The notes beneath the pieces are model-generated. The model saw only the letters and a program-made list of their open reading frames with translations. It did not search any database and was not told where the DNA came from. Shown piece by piece: positions 1,828-15,440 of a stretch of DNA of 15,440 nt (position 1 is its first letter; the number at the start of each line of letters is the position of its first letter). The translations under genes and the position numbers were made by a program. Origin of the DNA: Actinomycetes bacterium (GTDB lineage Bacteria; Actinomycetota; Acidimicrobiia; Acidimicrobiales; Acidimicrobiaceae). The DNA lies in NCBI GenBank assembly GCA_021785315.1, contig JAJYFX010000009.1:1-15440 (forward strand), given 5' to 3'.

Positions 1828-2038
1828 ACCTGCCGGCAATGAACTTGGATATGTCGACGCACTCAACGAGCTGCGTGAACTCGTAGAACGACTCTCTACC
1901 GAGCAGGACATAGATCAATTGGCCAAAGAGGTCGGCAGAGCTAAGGAACTAATAGATTTTTGCAGATCCAGAATTAGTTATGCCGAACTCGAGATCAACC
2001 AAATCCTGTCCGACGATGCGAGCGAAGAGCCATCCTGA
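1811..2038 (+). CDS. xseB: Exodeoxyribonuclease VII small subunit
   Basis: Small helical subunit of exonuclease VII, which binds the XseA helical region. The recognisable core begins GYVDALNELRELVERL, followed by an amphipathic coiled coil (QLAKEVGRAKELIDFC) and an acidic tail, as in the XseB family. The frame is open from an ATG at 1775, but that would add 12 or more residues not expected in the family. A GTG at 1811 is chosen because a GAGG-like sequence lies just upstream and because it places the core near the N-terminus; GTG at 1814 or 1820 and ATG at 1793 are alternatives. The start lies inside the last codons of xseA (stop 1825-1827), which points to translational coupling. Identity is good; the exact start is uncertain. 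Confidence 0.85.
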   Translation: MVLVLEPAGNELGYVDALNELRELVERLSTEQDIDQLAKEVGRAKELIDFCRSRISYAELEINQILSDDASEEPS

Positions 2039-2126
2039 CCAATGATCTCGTTCGAGATGGGATATAGCCACTAGTGGTTGTCGCCCAAGCCAGTCCAGAA
2101 AAGCTGGCTGGCGGCAGATGAGTTTG

Positions 2127-2182
2127 TCGATCTGGCAATGCCCGCTGAGAGCTAATCGAAAGGCAAAATTCCGCCAGATCGA
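2127..2182. repeat. 10-bp inverted repeat between convergent xseB and nadC
   Basis: TCGATCTGGC at 2127-2136 is the exact reverse complement of GCCAGATCGA at 2173-2182, with 36 nt between. It lies in the 191-bp gap between two convergent genes. The gap also contains shorter hairpins: ATCTCG-TT-CGAGAT near 2045-2058, a CCACTAGTGG palindrome near 2070, and AGCCAG/CTGGCT near 2090-2112. The position suits a two-way transcription end. No T-run follows a stem, so this is not a textbook intrinsic terminator. Confidence 0.5.
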
Positions 2183-2229
2183 TCAGTCGAACCAAAATAC
2201 AGCTCGATCATCAGCCGAATTTCTAAAGC

Positions 2230-3066
2230 TCAAGATACCTTGAGCGAGATATCGAGGGACTTCACAGAGTGAGTTAAGGATCCGGCCGAGATATAGTCAA
2301 CACCAGTTACCGCAACTTCCCTGACCCTCTCGACAGTCATATTCCCGCTCGCCTCAAGCTTGGCCCGGCCGTTTGTGATCTTCACGGCTTCAGCCATCAT
2401 TTCGGTGGACATATTGTCTAGCAGGATTGCGGGAACCCCAAATTGCAAAGCTTCTCTCAATTCTTCTAAGGTTTCAACCTCAACCTCTACAGCCAAGAAA
2501 TGGGGTGCCGACTTATTTAGAAGTTCCAGAGCCTTGGTTATTCCTCCGGCAGCCTTGATGTGGTTATCCTTGATAAGAATCCCATCGAATAATCCGAACC
2601 GATGGTTCTGGCCGCCACCAACCGTAACTGCGTATTTTTCGAGAAATCGTAGCCCTGGGGTGGTTTTACGCGTATCAAGAATTTTTGCCTTGAATCCCTT
2701 TGTCTCGGCTACAAATTCCCTGGTCCTAGTGGAAATCCCCGAAAGCCGCTGGAGCAGGTTTAGCGCCACTCTTTCACCGCCCATTATCTTGCCCAAGTCG
2801 CCTGAGACTTCCGCGATGACGTCTCCCTTTTTAACCTCCTGGCCTTCCTCAACAAACCGCTCAACGCTTATCTGGTCGTCGACCAGGCTGAAGGTTCTGG
2901 CCACCACTGGAAGACCGCAGATGATCCCGTCTTCCTTCATCAGAAAACGGCCCCTTCCCAATATCCCAGGAGGTACCGTGAGAATCGTGCTTATATCTCC
3001 ATGACCTATATCTTCTCTGAGCCAAGAACGGAGACTCTCATCGAGAATGTTCATATCGATTTCCAT
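2230..3066 (-). CDS. nadC: Nicotinate-nucleotide pyrophosphorylase, carboxylating (quinolinate phosphoribosyltransferase)
   Basis: Converts quinolinate and PRPP to nicotinate mononucleotide, pyrophosphate and CO2 in de novo NAD synthesis, in the cytoplasm. The 278-residue product carries the family's landmarks in order: REDIGHGDIST near the N-terminus, the barrel segment ERVALNLLQRLSGIST, then ILDTRKTTPGLR, KYAVTVGGGQNHR and DGILIKDNHI, then the VEVEVE strand, ILLDNMS, LEASGNM and YISAGSLTHSV. The frame is open to a GTG at 3087, but the ATG at 3066 is preferred: AAGGGA lies upstream of it, while the GTG has no ribosome site. A TATTAT -10-like hexamer lies upstream (3124-3119). nadA and nadB are not adjacent. 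It is convergent with xseB and appears to be a single-gene unit. Confidence 0.97.
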   Translation of the reverse strand: MEIDMNILDESLRSWLREDIGHGDISTILTVPPGILGRGRFLMKEDGIICGLPVVARTFSLVDDQISVERFVEEGQEVKKGDVIAEVSGDLGKIMGGERVALNLLQRLSGISTRTREFVAETKGFKAKILDTRKTTPGLRFLEKYAVTVGGGQNHRFGLFDGILIKDNHIKAAGGITKALELLNKSAPHFLAVEVEVETLEELREALQFGVPAILLDNMSTEMMAEAVKITNGRAKLEASGNMTVERVREVAVTGVDYISAGSLTHSVKSLDISLKVS

Positions 3067-3330
3067 ATGAAAGCGACTTCCCTTCACTGTTGATTTACCA
3101 AAGAAATGTAATGCGCTAATAATAGGACAAAATCACCTAGCAGCAGAACCCGGCCACCTGCACAAATAAACCTGAGCCCCAGAAAAGCTATCTGCGTCGT
3201 CTAGCCTCAAAGCACCGAAACGAATGTGGGCAAAAGCTGGCTAATAACTACTGCGTTCTGAGCTGGCAGAATAGATGTTAGTTAGACTCAGGGAACCTAA
3301 CAACAAATAGGGCCTAAAAGTTATTTTCTA
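3067..3330. other. Non-coding upstream region of nadC
   Basis: This holds the nadC leader and a possible -10 (TATTAT on the minus strand, 3124-3119). I see no coding frame of weight, RNA gene or strong hairpin. It runs directly into the decayed transposase-like segment. Confidence 0.5.
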
Positions 3331-3591
3331 TCTACCGACCTCCGGGGCACCAATTTTGTGCCCAATGATAACAATCTTGTCCCAAGTGCCGGACTTCCGG
3401 CCGTCGCCATGTTGCCTCGCGGCCTTGAGCACTGTGGGCTGATTGACGACAAAGCGCCACTTCCGGGTCAATTCAAGAGAGCCAATCCAAGTGGAAAGCC
3501 TCCGGCGCAGGTTCATGCCAAAGGAGTCAGCGCCATCTGCCTGCAGGCCAAAGTCGGCTTCAACAACGGCATGCGGAGGATTCGGATCTAG
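3331..3591 (+). pseudogene. Remnant resembling the N-terminus of an IS1380-type transposase
   Basis: Read in one plus-strand frame up to the TAG ending at 3591, the translation gives NNLVPSAGLPAVAMLPRGLE, then CGLIDD, then a RANPSGK block and more degenerate sequence. IS1380-family transposases begin with a similar pattern: a 'D-x-x-LV-x-x-AGL' motif, a Leu-rich helix, 'GL', and an 'ANP-x-x-K' segment about 25-30 residues later. The frame then stops, and the DDE catalytic regions are not visible. This is a short, degraded similarity seen by eye. An alternative is non-coding sequence with chance resemblance. No terminal inverted repeats or target duplication were identified. Confidence 0.35.
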
Positions 3592-3592
3592 G

Positions 3593-3883
3593 TTGTCGCG
3601 AGTTAAATCAACTCTCGCCTTAGCTCTGGATACGTTACAAGTTGCCGCTGATGAAATTGCAACTACATCGAGCTCTGGATCGCGCGGCGCGCAATCACAG
3701 CTCGCAGGACAAGTCCGCAGCTTTGAGCAAAATGGTGTCGAATTGACAATCAGCGTTCCGCGGACAGACCCGCAACCGGAAAAGGGTCAGAAAACCCAAG
3801 GCCGTTCATCGGTTGCAAAAGACTTTTATCATTACCGATGCTTACAAATTCATGTCTGGCCGAGTTTGGGCGGAACCCCTTAG
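3593..3883 (+). pseudogene. Remnant resembling the C-terminal half of an IS1182-like DDE transposase
   Basis: This lies in an open plus-strand frame that ends with TAG at 3883. The translation contains LDTLQVAADE, then FEQNGVELTISVPRTDPQPE, a KGQKTQGRSSVAKDF segment and YHYRC. IS1182-type transposases carry a comparable order: a 'L-x-x-VAD-x-GY' strand with a catalytic Asp, 'C-x-x-x-GI-x-x-VP', a GRF-x-x-xDF-x-Y segment, then 'CPAG'. The GY and CPAG signatures are damaged here. The end overlaps the 3' end of the MFS gene on the other strand. The frame differs from the upstream remnant, so either two elements or one frameshifted element is represented. Confidence is low to moderate. Confidence 0.35.
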
Positions 3884-4987
3884 GAACCATAATGCACCCA
3901 TGAGGCTTGCCAAGCTAACCACCCCCATACCGAGCAGAAGCGTAGGAAGCACCACAAACGTGACGAGCGAACCAAAGACCAGCGGAGCAGATACCTGGAC
4001 CGCTCGATTCACTGCAGTGCGCAGCCCAACAGCTAGGCCTTGATCCTGTCTAGGAGTGGCCTTGGATAGAAGGCTGATCAACGACGTTTGGGAGAGCCCA
4101 TTACCTACCCCAAACACCACCTGGCATATCACCTGGGACATAAAGGATGCAAAGAAGGGAACCGCCGTAAAGGCTAAGGCCATTCCAAATAGGCTCAAAT
4201 ACAAAAGCCTTTCGGCTTGAAATCTTCGATGCAAGAGACCGGTCATTGCCGCTGCGCCAGCGCTTGCCGCCGAACCCAGGGAAAGTACAATGCCTATGTC
4301 CAGCGGGCTCCAACCCAAATGGTGCAAATAAACCACGTAGAAAGAGTTTCGTATTGCTATAAGTCCCAGACGAACCACTGAGCCGATGATTAGCAGACGG
4401 AATGCTGGCATTCCAAGCAGCCTGAAAGCTCGTCCAAAATGGCGGCTCGCCTCGATTGGCGCTTCTTGCGGCGATGAAGAAGCAGGCGGAATCTCAGAAC
4501 TTACTGAAACATCGCGCACGGTAACAGAAAATGCGACCGCCGCAATTGCACCAGCGGCGACGAAAAACGCCAGAGTCATGTTGGCGCGCGAGACGAGCAC
4601 TCCAGCCAGGAATGGCCCGCCAAAATTGCCAACCTGGGCCGACAAGCTCAGCCACCCGATTCGACGAGCTCGCCTACTCCCCTGTTCGCGCTCTCTTGTG
4701 ACCGATGTCTGAGCTCCAATCCATGCTGCGGACCGACCGAGTCCAGCAACCATCTGCCAAAAGCCAAATAACCAGACGTTGGCAACCGAAATGCTAAGTA
4801 TCGTAGCCACCCCAGCGGAAATAGCTCCGATTAGAACTACATGTCGGCTACCCAGCCGATCAGCGGCCGCCCCAATAGGAATTGCGAAAAACATGGGCGC
4901 AACTGAAACAGCAGCGACGTCAGCACCAATGGCAAACGCAGATCCATGCATCCGCAACACCCACAAAGGAATAAGAAGCATGACCAT
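3842..4987 (-). CDS. MFS transporter
   Basis: Major facilitator superfamily permease of the inner membrane; substrate unknown, probably small-molecule efflux by proton antiport. The sequence shows two six-helix halves joined by a polar loop around residues 165-190 (SSEIPPASSSPQEAP). The family's A-like motif appears as IPIGAAADRLGSRHVVLIGA, and an Arg-rich cytoplasmic loop (REREQGSRRARR) lies near 100-110. The 381 residues from ATG 4987 cut into the first helix. The same frame runs upstream for 33 more codons, through RSANLVFSIGIGQRV, to a TAG at 5087-5089, with no ATG, GTG or TTG in that stretch. An ATC at 5050 is preceded by AAGGGG at 6-nt spacing. The real start is therefore unresolved. 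No regulator is adjacent. Confidence 0.88.
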   Translation of the reverse strand: MVMLLIPLWVLRMHGSAFAIGADVAAVSVAPMFFAIPIGAAADRLGSRHVVLIGAISAGVATILSISVANVWLFGFWQMVAGLGRSAAWIGAQTSVTREREQGSRRARRIGWLSLSAQVGNFGGPFLAGVLVSRANMTLAFFVAAGAIAAVAFSVTVRDVSVSSEIPPASSSPQEAPIEASRHFGRAFRLLGMPAFRLLIIGSVVRLGLIAIRNSFYVVYLHHLGWSPLDIGIVLSLGSAASAGAAAMTGLLHRRFQAERLLYLSLFGMALAFTAVPFFASFMSQVICQVVFGVGNGLSQTSLISLLSKATPRQDQGLAVGLRTAVNRAVQVSAPLVFGSLVTFVVLPTLLLGMGVVSLASLMGALWFLRGSAQTRPDMNL

Positions 4988-5253
4988 CGACTGCGAAACC
5001 CGCTGTCCGATGCCAATGCTGAATACCAGATTTGCGGAACGACGACCGATGTCAGGCCCCTTAACTATTGCAGATCGGCATAGCTTCTAACGCTGCAATC
5101 ATATTTCGAATTCTTTTGCGTCAGCTCATCTTTCGGATTTCCCTCAGGGACAATCCAGGCAAGTGCCGCAACCGCGCCGCCACCAACTCTGAACCGCTTT
5201 CGAAAGGAGTCCGGTCGTAATGTTTCCCCGAGGAGATGCAGCGAAAAGATTTA

Positions 5254-6042
5254 TTAAGCTCTTGAACTGGTCCTTTTGATCTGAGCTTGCCCCTTCTTTT
5301 GTTGCACCGCATACCGCGAGTAGCCGAAAGTTACTAATAATAGCGCAGTGACAAGGTACATCAGGGAGAGCGCCGAACTGTCAGAGCCCGCATAAACGGC
5401 ATGAATCCAGATCATGATCAAAGCGATGACACTGAACCTGTGAACGTTCAACCACCCACGCTTCCCGTATCCAATTTTGAGTCTTGCTGAAAGCCCGGTC
5501 AGCAAACCGGCATAAAGCCCCATTGTCCCCAGGGCAACTGGAAGCGGTCTGTACGCCGAACGCAATGGGATGAATGCGCCAACCAATCCAACCTTGGCAT
5601 ATGTGTCGAGCACAACCGCCATGATATGGAGGGCCGTGAAGCTGAGGGTAAAAACAGCCAAAAGGGTATGGAACCTCATGCGGGTGATGGGGTGCAGGAA
5701 CTTGATCCTGTGCCTCGAGGGGTGAGAAAGAAAAAGTCCTGTCATTGCCAGAAACCAGAACAGGAGATATGCGGTAATACCGCTAGCTCTCGCGATCAGC
5801 CATGGGGCCATCCTCGGCTGGTCCAGATAACGGGATTCAAAAACAGTTAAAAGGTAGCCGATCGCAATTGCGTTCGCGGTGACAATTACGAGCGTGAACA
5901 GGTCAGCAACCAGCGAGTGCGGCTCATCTTCATCTAGGTATTCGTCAACCGGGTTTTCTCTTGCGCCGTCTGGTTTAGTCACCCAAAACTCTCTATTTTT
6001 CTGAGCAATAACCCGAAGACAAATCTCATCGAAGCCTGCCAT
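5254..6042 (-). CDS. Ferric-reductase-like transmembrane b-haem protein
   Basis: A 262-residue membrane protein with an acidic cytoplasmic N-terminus and about six helices (roughly 45-67, 80-104, 124-145, 165-184, 200-217 and 223-241), matching the ferric reductase-like transmembrane domain (PF01794 type). Two histidine pairs sit at haem-ligand spacing: H125 and H139 in helix 3, and H201 and H214 in helix 5. This suggests two b haems that carry electrons across the membrane. No FAD- or NAD-binding domain is attached, so the protein needs partners. The ATG at 6042 overlaps the last 17 nt of apbE, indicating coupling. In related systems this domain pairs with ApbE-modified FMN proteins; no such standard partner is visible here. 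Electron donor and acceptor are unknown. Confidence 0.87.
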   Translation of the reverse strand: MAGFDEICLRVIAQKNREFWVTKPDGARENPVDEYLDEDEPHSLVADLFTLVIVTANAIAIGYLLTVFESRYLDQPRMAPWLIARASGITAYLLFWFLAMTGLFLSHPSRHRIKFLHPITRMRFHTLLAVFTLSFTALHIMAVVLDTYAKVGLVGAFIPLRSAYRPLPVALGTMGLYAGLLTGLSARLKIGYGKRGWLNVHRFSVIALIMIWIHAVYAGSDSSALSLMYLVTALLLVTFGYSRYAVQQKKGQAQIKRTSSRA

Positions 6043-6970
6043 CCCAAATGACGTACTGGTCGATTAACGAATTCGTGAACGCCTGTCCGTAATCAGTTAT
6101 CCATGCGGCGGATATGTTTAGGGATTCCGAGACACCTTTTATGCGATCTGGGCCAAGTAGGAATAATGATTTTGACCAAACTTCCGCTTCAGCGGGGTCC
6201 TGGGCAACTACCGTAACGGCTGCCAGCCCTTTCCCGCCAGGTTCACCCGTATTCGGGTCGATGAGGTGATGCCTCAGCTCACCATTTTGCCACCAACTCC
6301 TTACGGCGGTGGACGAGGTGCAAACAGCAAGATCCAAAAGCCTCAATACCAGCACTGGATCACCTTCGGGCTGGAATGGATTTTGAACGCCAATATTCCA
6401 GCCGTTCATCGTCGGTCCGTATCCGGAACAGATGCAGTCTCCGCCAGCTTCGATCAGGAATTGCGAATGTCCAGGTTGGAGGGCCGCCGCTGACCATCTG
6501 AGCGCAAGCCCCTTGCCTATACCACCCAGGTCAATAGGAAGCTCGCCGACACGGACTAGATTTCCCGTTTTGAACTCGGGACTCCATTCCGGCAATGGAT
6601 CTCGCACATGAAGGGTTCGATCTGACTTTGACTCCGGCATGCCTTCGGTCCAGGAGTTCTTGTACCCAAGCGACACGAGATCTGTCAGAATCCTAGGATC
6701 GAACAGAAAGCCTGTGAGTTTGTAGGCCTCGTAGGCATCTTGGATGGCCATGAAGCACCGGGGCGAGACCTTGTGCCACGATTGAGGTGACTGGTTAATT
6801 TGAGATAGATCGCTGGTTGGACTGAATCTGGTGCAAGCGGTTTCTGTATCCGAAAAAACAGCCTGTACTTTCAGAAAACTCTCTTGTAAATCTTGATCAT
6901 CCCTCACTTGACAGGCCGACACTATGACCGAGGTTGCCATCGACCGGAAAGAGCCGATTACTGGTACCAT
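6026..6970 (-). CDS. apbE: ApbE-family FAD:protein FMN transferase
   Basis: The ApbE family moves FMN from FAD onto a Thr or Ser of a target protein through a phosphoester bond, using Mg2+. The 314-residue product shows the expected blocks: SFRSMATSV at the N-terminus, DLGGIGKGLAL near 147-157, EAGGD near 174-178, a CTSSTAVRSW strand, the HHLIDPNTGEP motif near 234-244, and AEVWSKSLFLLG near 262-273. No signal peptide or lipobox is evident, so a cytoplasmic location is likely. I chose the ATG at 6970, 7 nt after the preceding gene's stop; an in-frame GTG at 6991 would overlap that gene by 14 nt. The gene is in a tight operon with a b-haem membrane protein, so its target is probably part of that redox chain. 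Confidence 0.92.
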   Translation of the reverse strand: MVPVIGSFRSMATSVIVSACQVRDDQDLQESFLKVQAVFSDTETACTRFSPTSDLSQINQSPQSWHKVSPRCFMAIQDAYEAYKLTGFLFDPRILTDLVSLGYKNSWTEGMPESKSDRTLHVRDPLPEWSPEFKTGNLVRVGELPIDLGGIGKGLALRWSAAALQPGHSQFLIEAGGDCICSGYGPTMNGWNIGVQNPFQPEGDPVLVLRLLDLAVCTSSTAVRSWWQNGELRHHLIDPNTGEPGGKGLAAVTVVAQDPAEAEVWSKSLFLLGPDRIKGVSESLNISAAWITDYGQAFTNSLIDQYVIWDGRLR

Positions 6971-6977
6971 GTGAGTC

Positions 6978-7421
6978 TCAACCGAGGGCACGTGACGCCC
7001 CAGTGGAGCCGTGGGTTGGAGGTGGTGCTGTCGCTACTGTTCTCCGTGGATTGGACTGGCTTCGCGTCACAGGGGGTGAACTCTGGCTTCCTCCTGTTAT
7101 TTGCGGAGCAGACCCCGCCGATGCCGCGCCACTCAGCTGTTGAATCTGACCTTTCAACTGGGCAATCTGTGCTTGAAGCCGTGCAATCCTCTGCTGCTCT
7201 TCGCGTTGCTGCGGACTGGCCTCGGTGGCGGCTAACGACTGCGTAGTAGGTGTGATGTCGGCCGCTTTCGCACCTGAGTTACTGTAGGTTGGGTAGCTGC
7301 GATTTAGGATGTTGGCGACGTAAATTGTCGACAGCACACCCAACCCCGTTGACACTGGATACAGCACCACCAACGGCACATATTTCCTCAGCTTCGTCTG
7401 CTGCACCTTAGAGAGCTTCAT
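6978..7421 (-). CDS. Small membrane-anchored coiled-coil protein
   Basis: A 147-residue protein I do not recognise. It has a basic N-terminus, one hydrophobic segment (about 14-38) that should act as a membrane anchor, a Gln-rich coiled coil (about 70-98, heptad-like QQREEQQRIARLQAQIAQLK), and a Ser/Pro/Gly-rich tail ending in STGASRALG. The tail is probably outside the membrane. It starts at ATG 7421, 16 nt after the upstream gene, and its stop falls at the start of apbE, so it belongs to the four-gene operon. The STGAS tetrad resembles the core of ApbE target motifs (Dxx[ST]GA[ST]) but lacks the leading Asp. The role may be as a scaffold or electron-carrier subunit; this is inference only. 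Confidence 0.72.
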   Translation of the reverse strand: MKLSKVQQTKLRKYVPLVVLYPVSTGLGVLSTIYVANILNRSYPTYSNSGAKAADITPTTQSLAATEASPQQREEQQRIARLQAQIAQLKGQIQQLSGAASAGSAPQITGGSQSSPPVTRSQSNPRRTVATAPPPTHGSTGASRALG

Positions 7422-7437
7422 TCGGCCTCAGTGATAG

Positions 7438-7905
7438 CTAGTCATCCGTCTTATGTGCCATGGTAGTCGTCACGCCGCCGCTGGTGCCAGGGAGTGTGGT
7501 TGTCGCGTGATCGCCAGAGTCGTCAGAAGTGCCATCGTCTGCTTTGGCCGAACTTGCCCCGGTTGTCGCGCTTGTTGGCGGTACCTCCGATGCCGGGGAA
7601 TTCCCAGCGAGAAAGGCAGCGTTGCCGTTGGCGTTGTCAATCGCGGGAGCGGGCAACCGCGACGCCAGAGTGGATTTCGCGGAGTTCAACTCCGACTGAA
7701 GCTTTGCCTCTTCGTTTGAAAGCCTGCCAAGTGCGGCGGCCGTCGGATCCTGGGTCGTCGTGGTTGAAGAGGTCGTCGTTGACGCATCCTGGCCAACCGG
7801 CAAAGAGGGCGGAGCTACCACGCTCACGGCGTGTATGGCTGTTGCAGACCCTGCCCCTATACCGATTGCAGCGGCCAATTTGATAAAGCCTGTTCTTGTA
7901 AGCAA
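7438..7905 (-). CDS. Small exported Thr-rich protein
   Basis: First gene of the apbE/ferric-reductase operon, unrecognised. The start is set at TTG 7905 (155 residues) because a perfect GGAGG (minus strand, 7916-7912) sits 6 nt upstream; a GTG-type start at 7947 would add 14 polar residues ahead of the signal. Residues 1-32 have basic residues followed by a hydrophobic stretch (FIKLAAAIGIGAGSATA), a signal peptide or anchor. A run of Thr and Ser (41-52) and a short helix (about 58-82) follow. The rest is low-complexity Ala/Ser/Thr/Asp with TTGASS near 114-119 and SGGVTTT near 142-148. Composition suggests an extracytoplasmic linker-like protein. Whether it is an ApbE substrate is speculative. 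Confidence 0.7.
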   Translation of the reverse strand: MLTRTGFIKLAAAIGIGAGSATAIHAVSVVAPPSLPVGQDASTTTSSTTTTQDPTAAALGRLSNEEAKLQSELNSAKSTLASRLPAPAIDNANGNAAFLAGNSPASEVPPTSATTGASSAKADDGTSDDSGDHATTTLPGTSGGVTTTMAHKTDD

Positions 7906-7965
7906 ATTCAACCTCCAGCTTCGATGTATACAGTCTCCAAGACCCAAATTCGTTTGGGATTATGC

Positions 7966-7974
7966 TGGTATTAG
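7966..7974 (+). promoter_or_regulatory. Possible extended -10 for the small plus-strand ORF
   Basis: TGG followed by TATTAG (7969-7974) forms an extended -10-like element about 30 nt before ATG 8005. No clear -35 lies at normal distance. It is weak evidence by itself and is given because it supports an otherwise orphan small ORF. Confidence 0.25.
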
Positions 7975-8004
7975 AATTTTCTTAGCTAGCTCGCCTCTGG
8001 CCGG

Positions 8005-8163
8005 ATGTTTGGCAGAGCCCCAGTCTGGCTTGCGCTTCTAGCTGGAATCGTCTTTTTGCCGCATGTGCTCTCGCTGAGCTCCGACACCAAACGACATGCA
8101 AGCGCAAAGAGGTCGTTTAAACCAGCTGCAACCACGATCCCCGCCTATGTGGCATGGCGATAG
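8005..8163 (+). CDS. Possible small secreted peptide (52 residues)
   Basis: ATG 8005 to TAG 8161-8163. The product starts MFGRAPVWLALLAGIVFLPH, a plausible signal peptide or single membrane helix, followed by a basic hydrophilic tail (SDTKRHASAKRSFKPAATT) ending AYVAWR. It is divergent from the redox operon, and no clear ribosome site precedes the ATG. Either a real small exported or membrane peptide, or the broken N-terminus of a longer secreted protein; another frame stays open beyond the stop but shows no recognisable domain. Only the hydrophobic pattern supports it. Confidence 0.3.
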   Translation: MFGRAPVWLALLAGIVFLPHVLSLSSDTKRHASAKRSFKPAATTIPAYVAWR

Positions 8164-8608
8164 CCCGACCCCGACCGGAGAGTCACCTAGGATTGGGAGC
8201 AGACCAGGGGAATTTGGAATGGAGCGTCCGAGCGTAATATGTAGATGCGCTGTTCACTTGCACTCTTTAGAGCGAAAACAGAAACACGCTTGGCTCCCGT
8301 CTGGCCGAAGGCCATTTCAACCAGATAATAAAGTTCAGTTCGCCGTTGGCACCAGACGAGCACGAATCCGATCTATCGCTATACGAGGTGCAATTTCTGT
8401 TCCGGTTAAGGGGTGCATCCGCAATGGAATGGAAATCATGGCGTAGCTACAGCAGCTAGCTGCAGCACGCGCCTGACCGAGTGCCCAGCCCTCGTTAATG
8501 CGAAATGCTGGAAATTCCCCAAGTCGCGAATACAAAAGATATCGAAGCCACCAGGATGCACCGCAATTATTGTCCTTGGAGTTCCCAAGTCAAGGCTGCT
8601 TCCAATTC

Positions 8609-9829
8609 CTAGCGAGTCGGCCTCACGGATTCCTCGATAAGCGAAGCCGGTAAAATGGCACCCGTTCCGAAACGTTCCTTGATTTTTGCCACGCTTTGAG
8701 AAAGCGCCATTCCGCGCTGACCCTGCTCATCGTCAAGCATCAACTGCTCTGCTCCCTCTTTTTTCAGGTTTGACATCGCGACACCTAACAATCGGATTCC
8801 ATGGTCGTTCGAACCCTTAGGAAACAGCTGCCTCAAATGACCTAGAATCTCTACGCCTGAATCGGTGGCAGACGACAAAGTAACTGACCTTGTGATTGTG
8901 TGAAAATCACCAAATCGGATCTTCAACGTTATCGTCCTTGCGGCCGCCTTGTTCTTCCTCATCCGATTTGCCACGCTTTCCGCGAGCCTCACCAGCTCGT
9001 GGTCAACTTGGCTCATCTCGTAAAGATCGGCGGGATAGGTCTGATCGTGACCGATCGACTTGCGACGCGAACCTGATGTTACTGAGTCGGAGTCACCCCC
9101 GCTTGCCAGAAGCCGCAGGTGCGGAGTGGCCTTCCCGAAAATAGAAGTCAAAGTAGCGTCGGGAATTCTCAGCAAGTCCCCAATTCGCTCGACCCCGACC
9201 GACCGCAATCGCTGATAAGTCTTGGGACCGACTCCCCACAGCTCCCTGACAGAAATTGGATCGAGAAACTCTTGCTCTCCACCGGGCCATACCACTACAA
9301 CACCTTTCGGAACTTCCACGATTCCTCCACTAATGGCAGGCTTTGCCCGGCGAGATGCTAACTTCGCGACCTGCTTGGTCGTGCCCACCCCCACGCACAC
9401 CGAGAGGCCAAGCTCTTTCCAAACCGATCGCCGTATCTCGGCTGCAATGGCCTGCGGCGGACCGAAGAGACGCAGGCTGCCGCTGACATCCATGAATGCC
9501 TCGTCCAAGCCCACTGTTTGTATTTCATCCGTAAAACTGCGCAACACTGCGTGAAAGCGAATGGAAATCTCCGCGTACCGCGAATAGTTGCCGTCCAGAA
9601 ATACTCCTCGCGGACACAGCTGCCTGGCCTTAGTCGTAGGCATGGCGGAACGAACTCCAAAGATACGAGCCTCGTAACTCGCGGAATTGACAACGCCTCG
9701 GGGGCCGGTTCCACCCACAATGACCGGCAACCCTGCCAGGCGGGGATTATCCAGCACCTCGACCGACGCAAAGAAGCAGTCCAAATCAGCGTGAAGAATC
9801 GCTCTATTGGCTCCCCAAGGACGCTCCAT
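8609..9829 (-). CDS. dinB: DNA polymerase IV (Y-family translesion polymerase)
   Basis: Error-prone, distributive polymerase that copies past damaged bases. The 406-residue product has the Y-family signatures: HADLDCFFASVE near the N-terminus (first catalytic Asp, and the aromatic steric gate in the FF pair), SYEARIFGVRSAMP, GNYSRYAEIS, and LDEAFMDVSGS carrying the catalytic Asp-Glu pair (about 109-110). The thumb follows (ELWGVGPKTYQRL, helix-hairpin-helix like), then the little-finger domain. EQLMLDD near 365 may be a weak clamp-binding motif. The SIDEAF form common in the family is GLDEAF here. The ATG at 9829 is preferred over the upstream TTG at 9835, because the AGG in GGGTAGG lies 8 nt before the ATG. 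I found no GAACN4GTTC SOS box upstream. It appears to be a single-gene unit. Confidence 0.97.
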   Translation of the reverse strand: MERPWGANRAILHADLDCFFASVEVLDNPRLAGLPVIVGGTGPRGVVNSASYEARIFGVRSAMPTTKARQLCPRGVFLDGNYSRYAEISIRFHAVLRSFTDEIQTVGLDEAFMDVSGSLRLFGPPQAIAAEIRRSVWKELGLSVCVGVGTTKQVAKLASRRAKPAISGGIVEVPKGVVVVWPGGEQEFLDPISVRELWGVGPKTYQRLRSVGVERIGDLLRIPDATLTSIFGKATPHLRLLASGGDSDSVTSGSRRKSIGHDQTYPADLYEMSQVDHELVRLAESVANRMRKNKAAARTITLKIRFGDFHTITRSVTLSSATDSGVEILGHLRQLFPKGSNDHGIRLLGVAMSNLKKEGAEQLMLDDEQGQRGMALSQSVAKIKERFGTGAILPASLIEESVRPTR

Positions 9830-10117
9830 ATCCAAAGCCTACCCACCTACTCTTTGTCATGTTGCTTCAAGCACGGTCGACTCGCTCGCGACCCTCCTAG
9901 GCTTCCGCGAAGCCAAGATTCGAATCGGCCGGCATCAGCGAAACCGTTCTATGTCGGCGCATGGACATCGATCTGGCGCACCTGCAAGCACTTTAATATC
10001 GTTAGCTGTGATGAGCTGCATGGCGGCTATGAGCAATTGGGTTGTTCCTAACGAATCTCAAGTGCAATAAGGGGTTCGCTCACTCTCGGATCAATAGACA
10101 ACTTGCAGAATCGCCGA

Positions 10118-10528
10118 TCATTTCGCTGACGCACGCTCGCTAAGAATCTGCTGTACTAATCCCGGGTCGTCGGGAGTAATAGTCGGACGAATATGCCTGC
10201 CTACATCGAGCACCAGCGCAAGACTTTTCTTTGGCCGGCTCGTATCAAGGTTCCACCAGTGGATGAAGTCTCCTGAACCCCATATTCGCCAGCGGCGGAC
10301 AGCATTAAATCCCGCCAGGGGAAGCTCGGTCACTGTCTTGATGGCGGAGTACGGAATTCGCTTAGCGCCCCAGAGGTAGTACCACCGGATCACCAGTGCA
10401 TCGTCGTCACAAGCGATGCGGCCGTCATCATAAATAAAGTGACCACTCGACATCTTCACCATCCCTAAGGCTCCGCCGTTGGTAATTATTATAACGATGC
10501 CAATCGCAAGTGTCAGGGCTAAAAGCAT
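10118..10528 (-). CDS. Membrane protein with a bacterial PH-like domain
   Basis: A 136-residue protein of a conserved type without known function. Residues 1-22 form a hydrophobic helix (LLALTLAIGIVIIITNGGAL), so it is membrane anchored. The remainder reads as one small beta-rich domain: the DDALVIRWYYLWGAKRIPYS segment, IKTVTELPL, then RRWRIWGSGDFIHWWNLD, RPKKSLALVLDVG and a closing helix after TPDDPGLVQQIL. This layout fits bacterial PH-like domains. ATG 10528 is the first usable start; the frame upstream has no ATG, GTG or TTG. The gene is flanked by 280-bp gaps on both sides, so context gives no clue. Family assignment is by pattern only. Confidence 0.75.
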   Translation of the reverse strand: MLLALTLAIGIVIIITNGGALGMVKMSSGHFIYDDGRIACDDDALVIRWYYLWGAKRIPYSAIKTVTELPLAGFNAVRRWRIWGSGDFIHWWNLDTSRPKKSLALVLDVGRHIRPTITPDDPGLVQQILSERASAK

Positions 10529-10786
10529 CGCGCCAACTGACCTGGTGCGATTCAGTCCGACGAAACTTCGTGTTTGCCGATATCGTCGACGACCTACCCG
10601 CTACCACGGTTGCGGCCAAACGCGCGCCGCAACGAGGAAATGCTCACTGGACCCGATAGAAAGCGCCAGGCACTTTCGCTGCCCCACACAGTTTCCGGCG
10701 CGCCGCTTCCAAGGGTGACCGGCAGCCTGATGCTAAACCGTGGTCAAGTTTGGACCTTTCATGATTAGAGTAATGAATCAAATAGG

Positions 10787-10792
10787 TATCAT
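10787..10792 (+). promoter_or_regulatory. -10 element of the tRNA-Arg gene
   Basis: TATCAT (five of six consensus bases) lies 17 bp before the mature tRNA 5' end. The -35 region is poor (TTAGAG at 16-bp spacing). TCATGATT occurs twice, at 10759-10766 and 10789-10796, flanking and overlapping the -10. Confidence 0.4.
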
Positions 10793-10809
10793 GATTGTTA
10801 CGAAGCTAC

Positions 10810-10881
10810 GCCCCCGTAGCTCAGGGGATAGAGCATCGGTTTCCTAAACCGTGTGCGCAGGTTCGAATCCTGCCGGGGGCA
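10810..10881 (+). tRNA. tRNA-Arg (anticodon CCT)
   Basis: A complete 72-nt cloverleaf. The acceptor arms GCCCCCG (10810-10816) and CGGGGGC pair fully, with discriminator A at 10881. The D arm is GCTC/GAGC. The anticodon loop TTCCTAA gives anticodon CCT, which reads AGG. The anticodon stem has one T-T mismatch at its base. The variable loop is 4 nt, and the T arm is GCAGG-TTCGAAT-CCTGC. The 3' CCA is not encoded. No repeat of its 3' end was noticed elsewhere in the window, so there is no sign of an integration site here. Confidence 0.97.
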
Positions 10882-11137
10882 CGACGGGTTGCAGACAACA
10901 GTTACCTGATCATTACGGCAACAGTCCCGCCTTGGATGTCAAATATGGCGACTGGGTACGGCCATCTATTTGCTGTTGAGTCATGTCGAACTCGTAGCTT
11001 CAAAAGATGAGACGTTGTTGTCATGAAGAGCCGAAGAGCCGGAGTCAGGCCGACAGCTGTCCGGACAGAAGCGAACCAGGCCGCTACGGGCACGTTGAAC
11101 AGCGCGTCTCCGCAGCGAATGCAACCCAGACTGCCAT

Positions 11138-12337
11138 TCACAGGTCCGAGGCGTCACCCGGAGTGGAAGCCGTACTCCGCTGAGCAACCTTCCAATTACG
11201 CTCCAAATTGGCGATCAGACCTGGACTGTAGAGGCAGCGCGCCTGTTCGTAGCTATACACGCTCATATAGAGGCGGAAACGGTCCAAAGGCTCCCGGGCA
11301 ACTCGCAGCGTCCGCCGGTTTCCGAGCAAAGCCGCCACGCCCGCGCCGGTGAGCATTGACGCGGCGCTCTCTATTGCCCCCGAGATCTCATCAGCCTTCA
11401 CTACCTTGTCGACCATCAGCTGACCCCCGGGTTCGTCGACGTTAAAGACGCGCTCGAAAAGAATAGCTTGCCGGGCAAGCCGGTCGCCGACCACCTGCGG
11501 CAAGCGCAAAGCTGCGCACCCGGGGATAATCCCCTCCTTCCTGGCGGGAAGACTGAAGTACGAGCCGGTTTCGGCGACCACGTGGTCAACCACCAGCAGC
11601 CACTGGCAGGCGCCGCCAATGGCGAAGCTCTCCAGGGCTGCGATCCAAGGCTTCTCAGGTCTGGCGTCGGAACCGCGAACCTCGTCGTCGCGGATGCCAT
11701 GTCCGCGATATATCTTGTTGAGGGCGCCCAATTCCCGCTCAATCATGAACTCAATCAGCGAAATCTTGCCCTGGTAGAGGGCCGTTAGATCAATCCCGCT
11801 GCCTAGGATACGCTGGCCGGCATACTTTGGGTGCGTCGAAACCGCTCCTCGCAGCACGCCTACCTCAATCCGGTCGTCGAGCAGGACCAAATCGACCGCC
11901 GTCTCAAGCGCACTTACCGATCGGTCGTCCTCCGCGTTCAGCACCGCGAGATTCTGCACTGTAACCGTACCCAGGGTCCCGTCACGATCGACCCTCACCG
12001 GTCCCAGATCGACGCTGCCCGTAAGCTCAAACTCCTGGCGTCGCTCCCGCGCCTCCGACGTTGGTAGCGACATGGCGTGGAGCAGGTGGAGGCCAGTGTC
12101 GCGGTTGGCAAGTACCCGCGACACGAATATTCCCTGGTCGATCTCCAGACCAACCTTATTCTTCTGAAGCAGCTGGCGCTCGGCATCGATAGCCGAACGC
12201 GTCGGGAGCACCCCGGGAAACTGCTCGGCTACACCGTAGACCAGCTCCGCGACGCGCAGATGACTTCTTCGACCTTCTGTAAGTTCGTCGTAGATACGAA
12301 CGACATCCGTATCGTCCGTTATCGACATCTGGCTCAT
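11138..12337 (-). CDS. dpgC: DpgC-like cofactor-independent arylacetyl-CoA dioxygenase (crotonase superfamily)
   Basis: DpgC converts (3,5-dihydroxyphenyl)acetyl-CoA and O2 to (3,5-dihydroxyphenyl)glyoxylate without metal or cofactor, in dihydroxyphenylglycine synthesis for vancomycin-type antibiotics. The 399-residue product has the two-part layout of that family: a helical N-terminal region (about 1-105) found in DpgC but not in plain enoyl-CoA hydratases, then a crotonase fold. Visible motifs are HPKYAGQR (169-176), GSGIDLTALY (179-188), KPWIAALESFAIGG (229-242, oxyanion-hole glycines), YFSLPARKEGIIPG (260-273), VGDRLARQAILF (283-294) and GNRRTLR (339-345). The C-terminal LYSPGL helix also fits. 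Its substrate need not be the dihydroxyphenyl compound, since no dpgA, dpgB, dpgD or peptide-synthetase gene is present. It lies downstream of an arylpyruvate oxidoreductase and has its own promoter. A plain enoyl-CoA hydratase is the less likely alternative. Confidence 0.85.
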   Translation of the reverse strand: MSQMSITDDTDVVRIYDELTEGRRSHLRVAELVYGVAEQFPGVLPTRSAIDAERQLLQKNKVGLEIDQGIFVSRVLANRDTGLHLLHAMSLPTSEARERRQEFELTGSVDLGPVRVDRDGTLGTVTVQNLAVLNAEDDRSVSALETAVDLVLLDDRIEVGVLRGAVSTHPKYAGQRILGSGIDLTALYQGKISLIEFMIERELGALNKIYRGHGIRDDEVRGSDARPEKPWIAALESFAIGGACQWLLVVDHVVAETGSYFSLPARKEGIIPGCAALRLPQVVGDRLARQAILFERVFNVDEPGGQLMVDKVVKADEISGAIESAASMLTGAGVAALLGNRRTLRVAREPLDRFRLYMSVYSYEQARCLYSPGLIANLERNWKVAQRSTASTPGDASDL

Positions 12338-12906
12338 GGCAAAATGCTAGCACTACCGGCAGAACCTGTCATGCAGCAGTTTCCACGTCTCCACATCTGT
12401 ACGGACGGGCCCCTTTTCCGACGCAGAAACAGCGAAGTATCGTGGTGGCAACCGGATAAGAATTGCAGAGCGGGCAATGATTGACGGCCGAAGTGGCACA
12501 AAACTAGGAAAGCGTGTATAGGCGGCGTGATCGTCGAGCAGCTTGAGATCCCAAAAGCATCGCAGAGAAAATCTGAATATTTTATAGGTATAGACAAAGA
12601 ACGCCTAGCTTGGACAGGCATTGTCAACACAACCAGGTGAATCGCCGACAGTAACTGGCTCACAAACCAGAATTGCGCAAAATCGCCAAAGCCGGGAAAA
12701 CGAGTGCCACGGTTTTCTGGAAGAATCGTTAGTTCATTCTCAGCTGGCTATTTGCATTTCGAGCAATGCCGTCCGGGTCGCCGGCCGCACGGCAAATAAG
12801 TCCGGCCGAGCACGTCCGCTGACAATCCTCCGAGAGGCATCCTGCGCGCACGCGCTTAAGTCCGGGATGCGCTCGGACGGCCAGATCATTAATCGCCGGC
12901 TTTGCT
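12338..12906. other. Long intergenic region between the oxidoreductase and dpgC-like genes
   Basis: 569 bp with no convincing gene. The left end holds the dpgC promoter. Near the right end, 28 nt past the oxidoreductase stop, GTCCG (12860-12864) and CGGAC (12874-12878) form a short hairpin without a T-run. TAAGTCCGG occurs twice, at 12797-12805 and 12857-12865, exactly 60 bp apart. The middle (about 12580-12600) is AT-rich. Confidence 0.5.
12344..12372 (-). promoter_or_regulatory. Promoter of the dpgC-like gene, probably giving a leaderless mRNA
   Basis: On the minus strand, ATGACA (12372-12367, five of six -35 bases) and TAGCAT (12349-12344, four of six -10 bases) are separated by exactly 17 bp, and TGC immediately precedes the -10 (extended -10). 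Only 6 nt separate the -10 from ATG 12337, so transcription should begin at or next to the start codon. No Shine-Dalgarno sequence precedes the ATG, which agrees with leaderless translation, common in actinobacteria. Confidence 0.6.
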
Positions 12907-15440
12907 TCAAACGCTTGACCTGCGCCCGGATTTGACGTCGCTAAGTTGTGCGAGCAGTTCGTCGCCTCTGCGGCGAGCCTCCTTTAGGGCTGCGTCTTTT
13001 ATATCTTCGTATCCCCTGATCAAGTCTGGAAGTTCAGCCACCTGGACCACAAGGTCAATAGTGCTGAGATCGAGACTCTTCAGGGCCGTTTCCATTAAGC
13101 CCATGTACCAGTTAGGAGCCTCGCGTTCCTGACGCCGCAGTTGGGAATGTGAAAATAAATCTAGAGGCGTTCCACGCAGAAAGCGCATGCGGCGTAGCAG
13201 GCGCAGTGGTCCCCGAAACCATGGCCCAAGAGCCAGCTTCCTGCTGACGCCAAAAGAGCGCAGCAGCGGAGGATGCAAATGGTAGGTCACTCGGCCGGGA
13301 GCTTCAAATGTTGCGGCCACCTGTTTTTCGAAGGAATCAGACAAGTACAGTCTTGCCACCTCGTATTCATCCTTGTATGCCATGAGCTTGTACAGGTTGG
13401 TGGACACAGCACCAGTGACAACATGGCTTTCGGGAATCGCAGCGGTCTCGCGGCCATAAACCGCGGCAACGTGGTCTAAATAGACTTCCGCCAGTTTTAG
13501 GTTCTGGTAAGAAACCAGGTCGCTTGCCTTGTCCGTGACCGAAGTGGCAATTTGATCAGGGAGTCCGGAAAGGGACTGTCGCTTTGATATTGACTTTCTC
13601 ACTTGACGATCGCGAATACGGCTTAAATTTGCTAAAGGTTCAGCGATCGCCACGCTTCTGTCGAGATCCAGCGCATCTTTAACGGAGCGAGGATCAACCA
13701 CCCATGTCCTGCCCCACCGAAAGGCCGACAGATTTTGGGGCACGGACACGCCGTTAGCAACAATTGCGGCTTCGATGGCCCGGGAGGAAATGGGAATTGT
13801 TCCCGCCTGATACGCTGCCCCAATAGCTACGATGTTGGTCAAAAGATAGTCACCGACAATGCTTTCAGCTATCCTGCGTGCTGGAACCGCAATAAGGCGC
13901 TTATTGGAGGTGCAAGACCGAACCAGTGATAACATCGCTGATTCATCCAAACTCAGCCGCCGATTCCTTACAATCTCGCCGGTATCCATGGCGTCGGTAT
14001 TGACAACAGCGACGGTGAACTCCTCGCTACATCTCGCCAGGTTCTTAGCATCCACAGCTGCAACCAGGTCGAGAGCTAGGTACACGTCAGCCGAACCCAG
14101 CCCGACCTTGGCGGTAGATAGGTCGGTCTCCGGCGTGCCGAGCACCAGAGATGACAGCACTGGTCCCCACTTCTGGGCAGCACCGGTCTGATCATAAGTG
14201 GCAACCCCGAGACCGTCAATAGATGCGGCGGTTGCAAGAATAGCGTTAGCCGTTATCACCCCGGTGCCACCGAGACCAGGTATGTAGATTGAATAACCAG
14301 AATTCCCAGGCGCCGGAAGTTCTGGTTCCTGGAGCAATCCTTCTGGAACCTGCCGCTGAACTCTCCTGTATCCAGTCTTCGGCCTCGTCTCGACTGTTAC
14401 AAAAGACGGGCAATCGCCCCGAAGACACGACTCGTCTTGGTTGCACGACGAGGTATGAATCTGGGTCTTCAGTCCCAAGTTCGTTCGAACCTGAATCAGC
14501 GACATGCAGTTTGATTTGACGCCGCAGTCCCCGCATGCCTCGCAGACCCGCTCATTTATCAAAACATAACGCGATGGTGGGGGCAATTGGCCGCGCCGCT
14601 GCTGGCGTCTCCGCTCGTTTGCGCAAGATTCGTCATAAACAAGCACGGTCACGCCGTTCGTCTCCGACAAGGATCTCTGAACGTCAACAATCTTGTCAGG
14701 AGAGCAAATCTCTACAGTGGACCCAAAATGATCGCCTTTGTATCGTCCTTTGTCCTTGGTCACGAGCGCGACTCTGGAAACCCCGTCATCTAGGAGTCGC
14801 CGTATTAGGGAAGCTACCGACAGCTGGCCAACTGGATGTTGAGCGCCCGTATTAGCTATGACCCCGTTGAAGAGAATCTTGAAGGTGATGGACGCCCCTG
14901 CGGCAACACACATGGCAATATTGGGGTAGCTCGAATGAAATAGAGAGCCATCCCCAACATTCTGAAACACATGTTTTTGCTCGGTAAATGGAGCGAGACC
15001 TATCCAAGGAAGGCCCTCTCCACCGTATTGCGTCATCGCTTCGATATGTCGCGGCTCCTCGATGATCGAGGCAAAACTATGACAACCTGGGCTACCCCAA
15101 GCTGTTGCGCCCTCAGGCAACTGGGTCGAAACACTGTGCGGGCACCCAGAGCAGTAGTTGGGAGTGCGTCCGCGCATTATGGGCACGCTCCGCGACTCGG
15201 CCTTTCCAATCCTTGCAAGCGCGTCAACCAGGGGGCGCTCGAACTCCGTTTTCGCAAAAAGGAAATTGCCTAACAATTTCAGAATTAGATCGGAATCAAA
15301 CCCTCCCTCCACGGGAAATAGCTCGCTGCCGTCAGCCAGGTGCTTTCCAAACACCGGGGTTGTGTCGCCCCAAAGATGCAAGGCCGCTCTCAGATTCGTC
15401 TCCAGCAGATCTCGCTTCTCCTCCACAACAAAGATCTGGT
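12907..15440 (-). CDS. Fused indolepyruvate (arylpyruvate):ferredoxin oxidoreductase, N-terminus beyond the window
   Basis: Thiamine-diphosphate and iron-sulphur enzyme that decarboxylates arylpyruvates (indolepyruvate, phenylpyruvate and relatives) to the arylacetyl-CoA, passing electrons to ferredoxin. About 843 residues are visible; full-length members are near 1,150-1,200, so the N-terminal part is off the edge. The frame stays open through FVVEEKRDLLE at the edge. In order come a Cys motif (YCSGCPHSVST), the TPP-binding core (NVGDGSLFHSS, KILFNGVIANTG), a Cys cluster (CEACGDCGVKSNC, then SSCNQDESCLRGDC) able to hold iron-sulphur centres, the gamma-type domain starting at YIPGLGGTGV, and a C-terminal DUF6537-type domain (YKLMAYKDEYEVARLY, HLHPPLLRS). 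This is the single-chain form found in many aerobes. It lies 569 bp upstream of the dpgC-like gene on the same strand, with a plausible metabolic link. Confidence 0.94.
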   Translation of the reverse strand, partial: QIFVVEEKRDLLETNLRAALHLWGDTTPVFGKHLADGSELFPVEGGFDSDLILKLLGNFLFAKTEFERPLVDALARIGKAESRSVPIMRGRTPNYCSGCPHSVSTQLPEGATAWGSPGCHSFASIIEEPRHIEAMTQYGGEGLPWIGLAPFTEQKHVFQNVGDGSLFHSSYPNIAMCVAAGASITFKILFNGVIANTGAQHPVGQLSVASLIRRLLDDGVSRVALVTKDKGRYKGDHFGSTVEICSPDKIVDVQRSLSETNGVTVLVYDESCANERRRQQRRGQLPPPSRYVLINERVCEACGDCGVKSNCMSLIQVRTNLGLKTQIHTSSCNQDESCLRGDCPSFVTVETRPKTGYRRVQRQVPEGLLQEPELPAPGNSGYSIYIPGLGGTGVITANAILATAASIDGLGVATYDQTGAAQKWGPVLSSLVLGTPETDLSTAKVGLGSADVYLALDLVAAVDAKNLARCSEEFTVAVVNTDAMDTGEIVRNRRLSLDESAMLSLVRSCTSNKRLIAVPARRIAESIVGDYLLTNIVAIGAAYQAGTIPISSRAIEAAIVANGVSVPQNLSAFRWGRTWVVDPRSVKDALDLDRSVAIAEPLANLSRIRDRQVRKSISKRQSLSGLPDQIATSVTDKASDLVSYQNLKLAEVYLDHVAAVYGRETAAIPESHVVTGAVSTNLYKLMAYKDEYEVARLYLSDSFEKQVAATFEAPGRVTYHLHPPLLRSFGVSRKLALGPWFRGPLRLLRRMRFLRGTPLDLFSHSQLRRQEREAPNWYMGLMETALKSLDLSTIDLVVQVAELPDLIRGYEDIKDAALKEARRRGDELLAQLSDVKSGRRSSV

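Follow-up and report, generated by a model that had tools for sequence, protein, structure and literature searches.

The window analysed here, a 15,440-nt stretch of contig JAJYFX010000009.1, carries side by side a gene for a fused 2-oxoacid:ferredoxin oxidoreductase of the indolepyruvate ferredoxin oxidoreductase (IOR) family and a gene for a homologue of DpgC, the oxygenase of the vancomycin pathway. We propose, with a probability of about one half, that the two genes serve an aerobic pathway for breaking down arylacetic acids, and possibly arylpyruvates, in which the IOR acts after the DpgC-like enzyme. First, a coenzyme A (CoA) ligase encoded outside the window would make arylacetyl-CoA. 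The DpgC-like protein would then deprotonate arylacetyl-CoA and add O2 without metal or cofactor, yielding arylglyoxylate and free CoA, a step suggested by homology, active site and gene neighbours. In the third step, to which the neighbours point, the fused IOR-type enzyme would convert arylglyoxylate and CoA into aroyl-CoA, CO2 and reduced ferredoxin. Finally, judging from relatives, BoxAB and BoxC would open the benzoyl-CoA ring; box genes were not seen in the window. On a wider scale, the chances seem to us evenly balanced that DpgC chemistry is a catabolic step in several phyla, with arylglyoxylate passing either to aroyl-CoA by one IOR clade, in users of the box pathway or of benzoyl-CoA reductase (BCR), or to an aryl aldehyde by thiamine pyrophosphate (TPP) enzymes. 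This would be an undescribed aerobic arylacetate route bypassing PaaABCDE.

The first-pass annotation had described a fused IOR and a full-length DpgC homologue in the same direction with no gene between them, and this description was borne out. The DpgC-like gene (11138..12337, minus strand) encodes 399 aa, a putative dioxygenase converting arylacetyl-CoA to arylglyoxylate. It is separated by a 569-nt gap (12338..12906) from the IOR gene (12907..15438, minus strand), which supplies the C-terminal 843 aa, its 5' part lying beyond the window end. The open reading frame (ORF) listing of the window held no credible gene in the gap. Between 12200 and 13000 there were two promoter-like sites (shuffle mean 0.4, standard deviation 0.7) and two terminator-like sites (shuffle mean 1.0, standard deviation 1.4); in each pair, one site is on the strand of the two genes. 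The IOR fragment scored 826.6 bits against NF009589 (PRK13030, indolepyruvate ferredoxin oxidoreductase family; cut-off 816) and contains the POR domain PF01558 and DUF6537 (PF20169). The match spans profile positions 344-1159 of 1170; since it starts at position 344, about 343 N-terminal residues are expected beyond base 15440. By this score the protein is a member of the fused IOR family, passing the cut-off despite its absent N-terminus. A search of PDB sequences with it gave no match.

Immediate same-strand IOR-DpgC pairs were also found at L035 (genome G011), L045 (G012) and L126 (G246), with gaps of 11, 13 and 134 nt, respectively, and this recurrence makes the adjacency in the window more than chance. 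G011 and G012 share one phylum, and G246 belongs to the class of G001. In a DpgC tree of 79 rows, made by a quick method, the IOR-linked proteins stood in three separate places, the G246 protein (L100) on a long branch. G460 has an IOR of the same clade close to the end of one contig and a partial DpgC at the start of another, an arrangement compatible with adjacency, though no proof of it. Our home-made gene caller missed some genes, and adjacency was based on tblastn matches and ORF listings.

The DpgC-like protein matched PDB DpgC (2np9) over residues 9-376 with an E value of 2.8e-92, and the DpgC equivalog profile NF042432 over positions 42-407 of 412. The profile score was 396.9 bits, below the cut-off of 530, and for this reason we did not file the protein as DpgC itself. 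Its AlphaFold2 model (42 sequences) reached a pLDDT of 83.2 and a pTM of 0.87. The best 19 Foldseek matches of the model in the PDB were all DpgC structures (TMq 0.86-0.88), and the next was an enoyl-CoA hydratase/racemase (TMq 0.49); the predicted structure has the DpgC fold with its N-terminal helical domain. For residue comparisons, 123 sequences were aligned and 85 distinct rows kept (DpgC, the window protein and 83 other homologues); numbering follows DpgC, and the counts cover only rows with a letter in the column. We take E189, R254, Q299 and the oxyanion residues I235 and G296 to be the active-site residues of DpgC, and A319, I324 and V425 to be its O2 pocket. Q299, G296 and A319 were kept in 83/83 homologue rows, I324 in 82/83, E189 in 77/78 and R254 in 76/81 (K in five), and the I235 column held I, L or V. 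The window protein is identical to DpgC at E189, R254, I235, G296, Q299, A319 and I324. The titles of DpgC structures in the PDB tell that R254, A319 and V425 have been mutated by others.

The protein thus resembles DpgC, the (3,5-dihydroxyphenyl)acetyl-CoA 1,2-dioxygenase of glycopeptide antibiotic clusters (2np9, 4ylh, 5kaj), in near-full-length sequence, predicted fold and active-site residues. It differs in falling below the equivalog cut-off, in carrying C in place of A298 and, within an O2 pocket that retains A319 and I324, L in place of V425. Its relatives also have catabolic-looking gene neighbours. The ORF listing of the 15,440-nt window showed no gene of nonribosomal peptide synthetase size; an antibiotic cluster as the setting of the gene is therefore not favoured. 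At its key residues the protein is like DpgC, yet it is distinct from the DpgC equivalog, which is specific for (3,5-dihydroxyphenyl)acetyl-CoA. The best 120 homologues listed were all at least 61% identical to it, and in JGI records homologues are called, for example, 'thioesterase DpgC' or 'enoyl-CoA hydratase/isomerase'.

Scanning GTDB genomes with an alignment query (A1) yielded 76 DpgC-like loci; the same scan with a single DpgC-like protein as query gave no match. The neighbour tests detect only relatives of the representative sequences used. In 29/76 loci an AMP-forming CoA ligase lay no more than 3 kb from the DpgC gene; 16 of these ligases resembled a protein with a PaaK-type C-terminal domain and 13 were other AMP-forming ligases. 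The ligase gene shared the strand of DpgC in 23 of the 29. A TPP enzyme of the acetolactate-synthase superfamily lay within the same distance in 7/76. In a density control (BLAST E 1e-20; 74 loci, after removal of two nearly identical Pigmentiphaga loci), there were 7.3 ligase matches per 100 kb within the 3-kb limit and 0.8 per 100 kb beyond it; TPP matches numbered five against none, and IOR matches two against none. A more distant TPP enzyme, about 6 kb from DpgC in Pigmentiphaga loci, falls outside this count. Gene orders included TPP-DpgC-PaaK (L010), ligase-DpgC-TPP (L068) and DpgC-ligase-TPP (L029), and four Pigmentiphaga loci showed TPP-DpgC-aldehyde dehydrogenase-UbiD plus further ligases. 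The TPP enzymes were of two types, with acetolactate-synthase-like or other TPP proteins as best profiles; benzoylformate decarboxylase was not named among the best 25 profiles for either type. We infer that they may decarboxylate arylglyoxylate. Because both ligase and TPP partners fit, arylacetyl-CoA would be the substrate of the DpgC-like enzymes and arylglyoxylate their product, and most likely this conversion serves catabolism. The enzymes would accordingly have three partners, namely ligases making the substrate, TPP enzymes decarboxylating the product, and the IOR clade.

Other genes were seen near DpgC-like genes. Nine loci (L020, L022, L023, L032, L033, L036, L042, L043 and L071) had a conserved trio encoding a hemerythrin-like protein, a DUF2249 protein and a 440-aa protein; at L022, on a short contig, the last member was not seen. 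At L065, from a SAR324 metagenome-assembled genome (MAG), a YjjI-family glycyl radical enzyme (11262-12956) directly follows the DpgC-like gene.

The place of the IOR in the route was judged from its clade. An IOR tree of 37 rows joined the DpgC-adjacent and the Box-linked IORs in one clade of 13 rows with support 100/100, and a grouping of only the DpgC-adjacent IORs and that of G460, chosen after an earlier tree, was rejected (p-AU 2.7e-7). The window IOR has the same domain content as IorAB and the fused IORs, together with the profile match, whereas it belongs to a distinct clade linked with DpgC and benzoyl-CoA genes. Box (BoxB/BoxC) or BCR-like genes lay near the IOR in 7/13 clade rows, in the stretch seen, and a CoA ligase in 6/13 (L140, L141, L142, L143, L175 and L203). 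At L035, BoxB (TIGR03225, 790.6 bits) and BoxC (TIGR03222, 749.4 bits), both over the equivalog cut-offs, are on the strand opposite DpgC at a distance of 2-4 kb; L045 has homologues 79% and 75% identical to these, likewise on the opposite strand and 2-4 kb away. At L002, BoxB is 8.2 kb from DpgC. Clusters of BoxC-BoxB-IOR-ligase with a window-type IOR (about 52% identity) occur in G004 (two copies), G006 and G1272, the BoxC-BoxB-IOR copy of G1272 being nearly the same as one of G004. This order is common to L141, L143 and L165 (the last nearly the same as L141), and L142 has a benzoate-CoA ligase (TIGR02262, 546 bits) on the BoxC side of BoxC-BoxB-IOR-AMP ligase. No more than 8 kb from its clade IOR, G336 (L203) carries four BCR-like genes (BcrCBAD-like) and a PaaK-type ligase, all scoring below the equivalog cut-offs, and in G002 BCR-like genes lie about 3 kb from the clade IOR. 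Since the clade adjoins BoxC-BoxB, benzoate-CoA ligase, PaaK-type and BCR-like genes, its product would be aroyl-CoA. Since it often sits with benzoyl-CoA enzymes and, in those six rows, a ligase, we place the IOR after DpgC.

Some loci of this clade show further features. The BCR-like genes of L201 (G306), L203 (G336) and L140 (G002), members of the class I benzoyl-CoA reductase family below the equivalog cut-offs, are all in MAGs, and in G306 they adjoin BoxBC, so that aerobic and anaerobic-type benzoyl-CoA genes stand side by side. In L144 (G007; 2649-11546), a window-type IOR lies tail to tail with a flavin mononucleotide (FMN)-dependent hydroxyacid dehydrogenase, followed by an MR/MLE enzyme, while the other flank of the IOR has a branched-chain-type ABC transporter. 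This arrangement could possibly feed a hydroxyacid to the IOR. A mandelate route was considered here and left as weak, because the best PDB matches were lactate and hydroxyacid oxidases, with mandelate enzymes lower; the best PDB match of the MR/MLE enzyme was an uncharacterised MR-like protein.

We also compared the presence of these genes across genomes. BoxB was over its cut-off in 19 of 39 DpgC-positive genomes, including all nine whose DpgC is 60-75% identical to that of the window. In one family of 35 genomes, five had DpgC, five BoxB and four both (one-sided Fisher 4.7e-4); four had an IOR above 800 bits, all of them BoxB-positive and three DpgC-positive. In the class (395 genomes), BoxB was over its cut-off in 47, and DpgC was found in four, all BoxB-positive; in this DpgC search no more than a few candidates were scored in each genome, and MAGs are incomplete. 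Among the 44 class genomes with a BoxB match in which DpgC was not found, eight had any IOR (E 1e-60) and two the window-type clade (G306 and G336), G324 not being placed.

PaaA (TIGR02156) was over its cut-off in only 2/39 DpgC-positive genomes. It gave weaker matches in 22 more, including about 100-117 bits in many Chloroflexota and Thermoleophilia-type genomes. The proposed route shares with PaaABCDE epoxidation the aerobic use of phenylacetyl-CoA, whereas this distribution sets the two apart, which supports the claim of the first-pass annotation that they are distinct. That annotation had also counted the O2-sensitivity of 2-oxoacid:ferredoxin enzymes against its proposal. This objection is weak: IOR homologues occur in genomes such as that of Pigmentiphaga (G013), which we take to be aerobic.

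Several observations weigh against the proposed route. Only two of the 76 loci had an IOR no farther than 3 kb from the DpgC gene, and 45/76 had neither ligase, TPP enzyme nor IOR within that distance. The conserved adjacency that was to be looked for recurs in the three further genomes, but not among the nearest relatives of the window (L001-L007 and L060; DpgC 68-74% identical), where 0/8 had an IOR, ligase or TPP enzyme within 3 kb, several of the contigs being short. Six of the 13 IOR clade rows (the window, L126, L144, L200, L175 and L204) showed neither box nor BCR-like genes in the stretch seen. BoxB was not over the cut-off in 20/39 DpgC-positive genomes and was lacking at 56-59% DpgC identity (G008, G009, G692 and G015). 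DpgC was not found in 3/12 genomes carrying the IOR clade (G306, G336 and G1273), a set mostly picked for having DpgC or BoxB and thus no free sample. In the protein itself, the V425 column holds L in 81/82 rows, the window included. Moreover, E189 and R254, which in DpgC presumably hold the phenolic OH of the substrate, are conserved, which means that the substrate may be hydroxylated.

The first-pass annotation had the product of the IOR feed DpgC, with arylpyruvates derived from Phe, Tyr or Trp giving arylacetyl-CoA and then arylglyoxylate. Its second half stood, since the DpgC type, the recurrent adjacency and the ligase and TPP neighbours fit the conversion of arylacetyl-CoA to arylglyoxylate. 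The supply of arylacetyl-CoA by the IOR is less supported, the clade lying by BoxC-BoxB in G004, G006 and G1272 and by BCR-like genes in G336, and we regard this order as a tentative alternative. PMC9765128 and PMC5109826 describe the conversion of phenylpyruvate to phenylacetyl-CoA as a known reaction of the IOR family, and PMC7089894 gives the same logic for the phenylglycine route of pristinamycin, with PglB/C before PglA. The IOR gene lies upstream of DpgC in all four adjacent pairs. At L035 and L126, where both sides were seen, the searched stretch contains no CoA ligase, as though the IOR took its place; the upstream sides of the window pair and of L045 lie outside the sequence seen. An aminotransferase-domain gene adjoins the sister-clade IOR of the DpgC-positive genome G641, which fits an arylpyruvate and also speaks against an IOR acting second. 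Placing the IOR first nevertheless leaves unexplained the seven clade rows with box or BCR-like genes and the six with a CoA ligase, and no other gene carrying arylglyoxylate to benzoyl-CoA was found in L035 or L045.

It is unlikely that one IOR performs both steps, or that the two genes adjoin only because they are regulated together; in either case the DpgC-like enzyme would still make an arylglyoxylate, which TPP enzymes would use in other lineages. The partners do look interchangeable, given the seven loci with a TPP enzyme near DpgC and the lack of any IOR match in G008 and G009, which have TPP loci. By itself, however, this explanation does not account for the IOR-Box clusters.

For the hydratase function, we take E144 and E164 of rat enoyl-CoA hydratase (ECH) to be the two catalytic glutamates. 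The Q299 and A319 columns hold two glutamates in L181, a hydratase ORF with the usual motifs, and the window protein has Q245 and A265 at these positions; the hydratase-family protein of L126 lacks both glutamates and is thus uninformative. A plain enoyl-CoA hydratase/isomerase was rejected, the two columns holding Q and A in 83/83 homologue rows. That the protein is some other crotonase-fold enzyme (hydratase, isomerase or thioesterase) and no oxygenase, as the score below the DpgC cut-off and names such as 'thioesterase DpgC' might suggest, is very improbable, given that these columns are like those of DpgC and that no hydratase comes near DpgC in likeness to the predicted fold.

With the IOR after DpgC, the proposed route would use O2 to do what the Pad pathway (PadJ, PadBCD, PadEFGHI) does anaerobically in Thauera, Azoarcus and Aromatoleum, DpgC taking the part of PadBCD and the IOR that of PadEFGHI. 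According to PMC5109826 (see also PMC9765128), the Pad steps run through phenylacetyl-CoA, phenylglyoxylate and benzoyl-CoA, PadEFGHI making benzoyl-CoA from phenylglyoxylate anaerobically. The intermediates would be the same, and the likeness is one of functional analogy only. An O2-using crotonase-fold enzyme would stand where Pad has a Mo-Fe-S oxidoreductase, a fused IOR-type enzyme would replace PadEFGHI, and ring cleavage would follow the aerobic box pathway. The Pgl phenylglycine route of Streptomyces pristinaespiralis shares the sequence of phenylpyruvate, phenylacetyl-CoA and phenylglyoxylate; according to PMC7089894 it is biosynthetic and uses a PDH-like complex, the dioxygenase PglA and a separate thioesterase. 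Each kind of enzyme is already known, and what appears new is the combination and the catabolic role for DpgC chemistry, neither of which was found in full-text searches of an open-access collection, a scope that leaves out most subscription journals. If the proposal is true, phenylacetyl-CoA has an aerobic fate beside the Paa epoxidase, and cofactor-free oxygenation gains a role in carbon turnover beyond one antibiotic precursor, linked to the box pathway. The large protein group now carrying the two JGI names would acquire a function as well.

Elsewhere in the window, positions 5254-6991 (minus strand) encode a ferric-reductase-like membrane protein and an ApbE-type FMN transferase. Among the loci compared, homologues of these (33-35% identity) were found only in L126/L100, likewise beside IOR-DpgC, and there they could serve as an electron outlet. 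The remaining neighbours, at 397-4987 and 8609-9835, are ordinary: the exonuclease VII large subunit, a NadC-like protein and an MFS transporter were recognised by eye, and DNA polymerase IV by Pfam.

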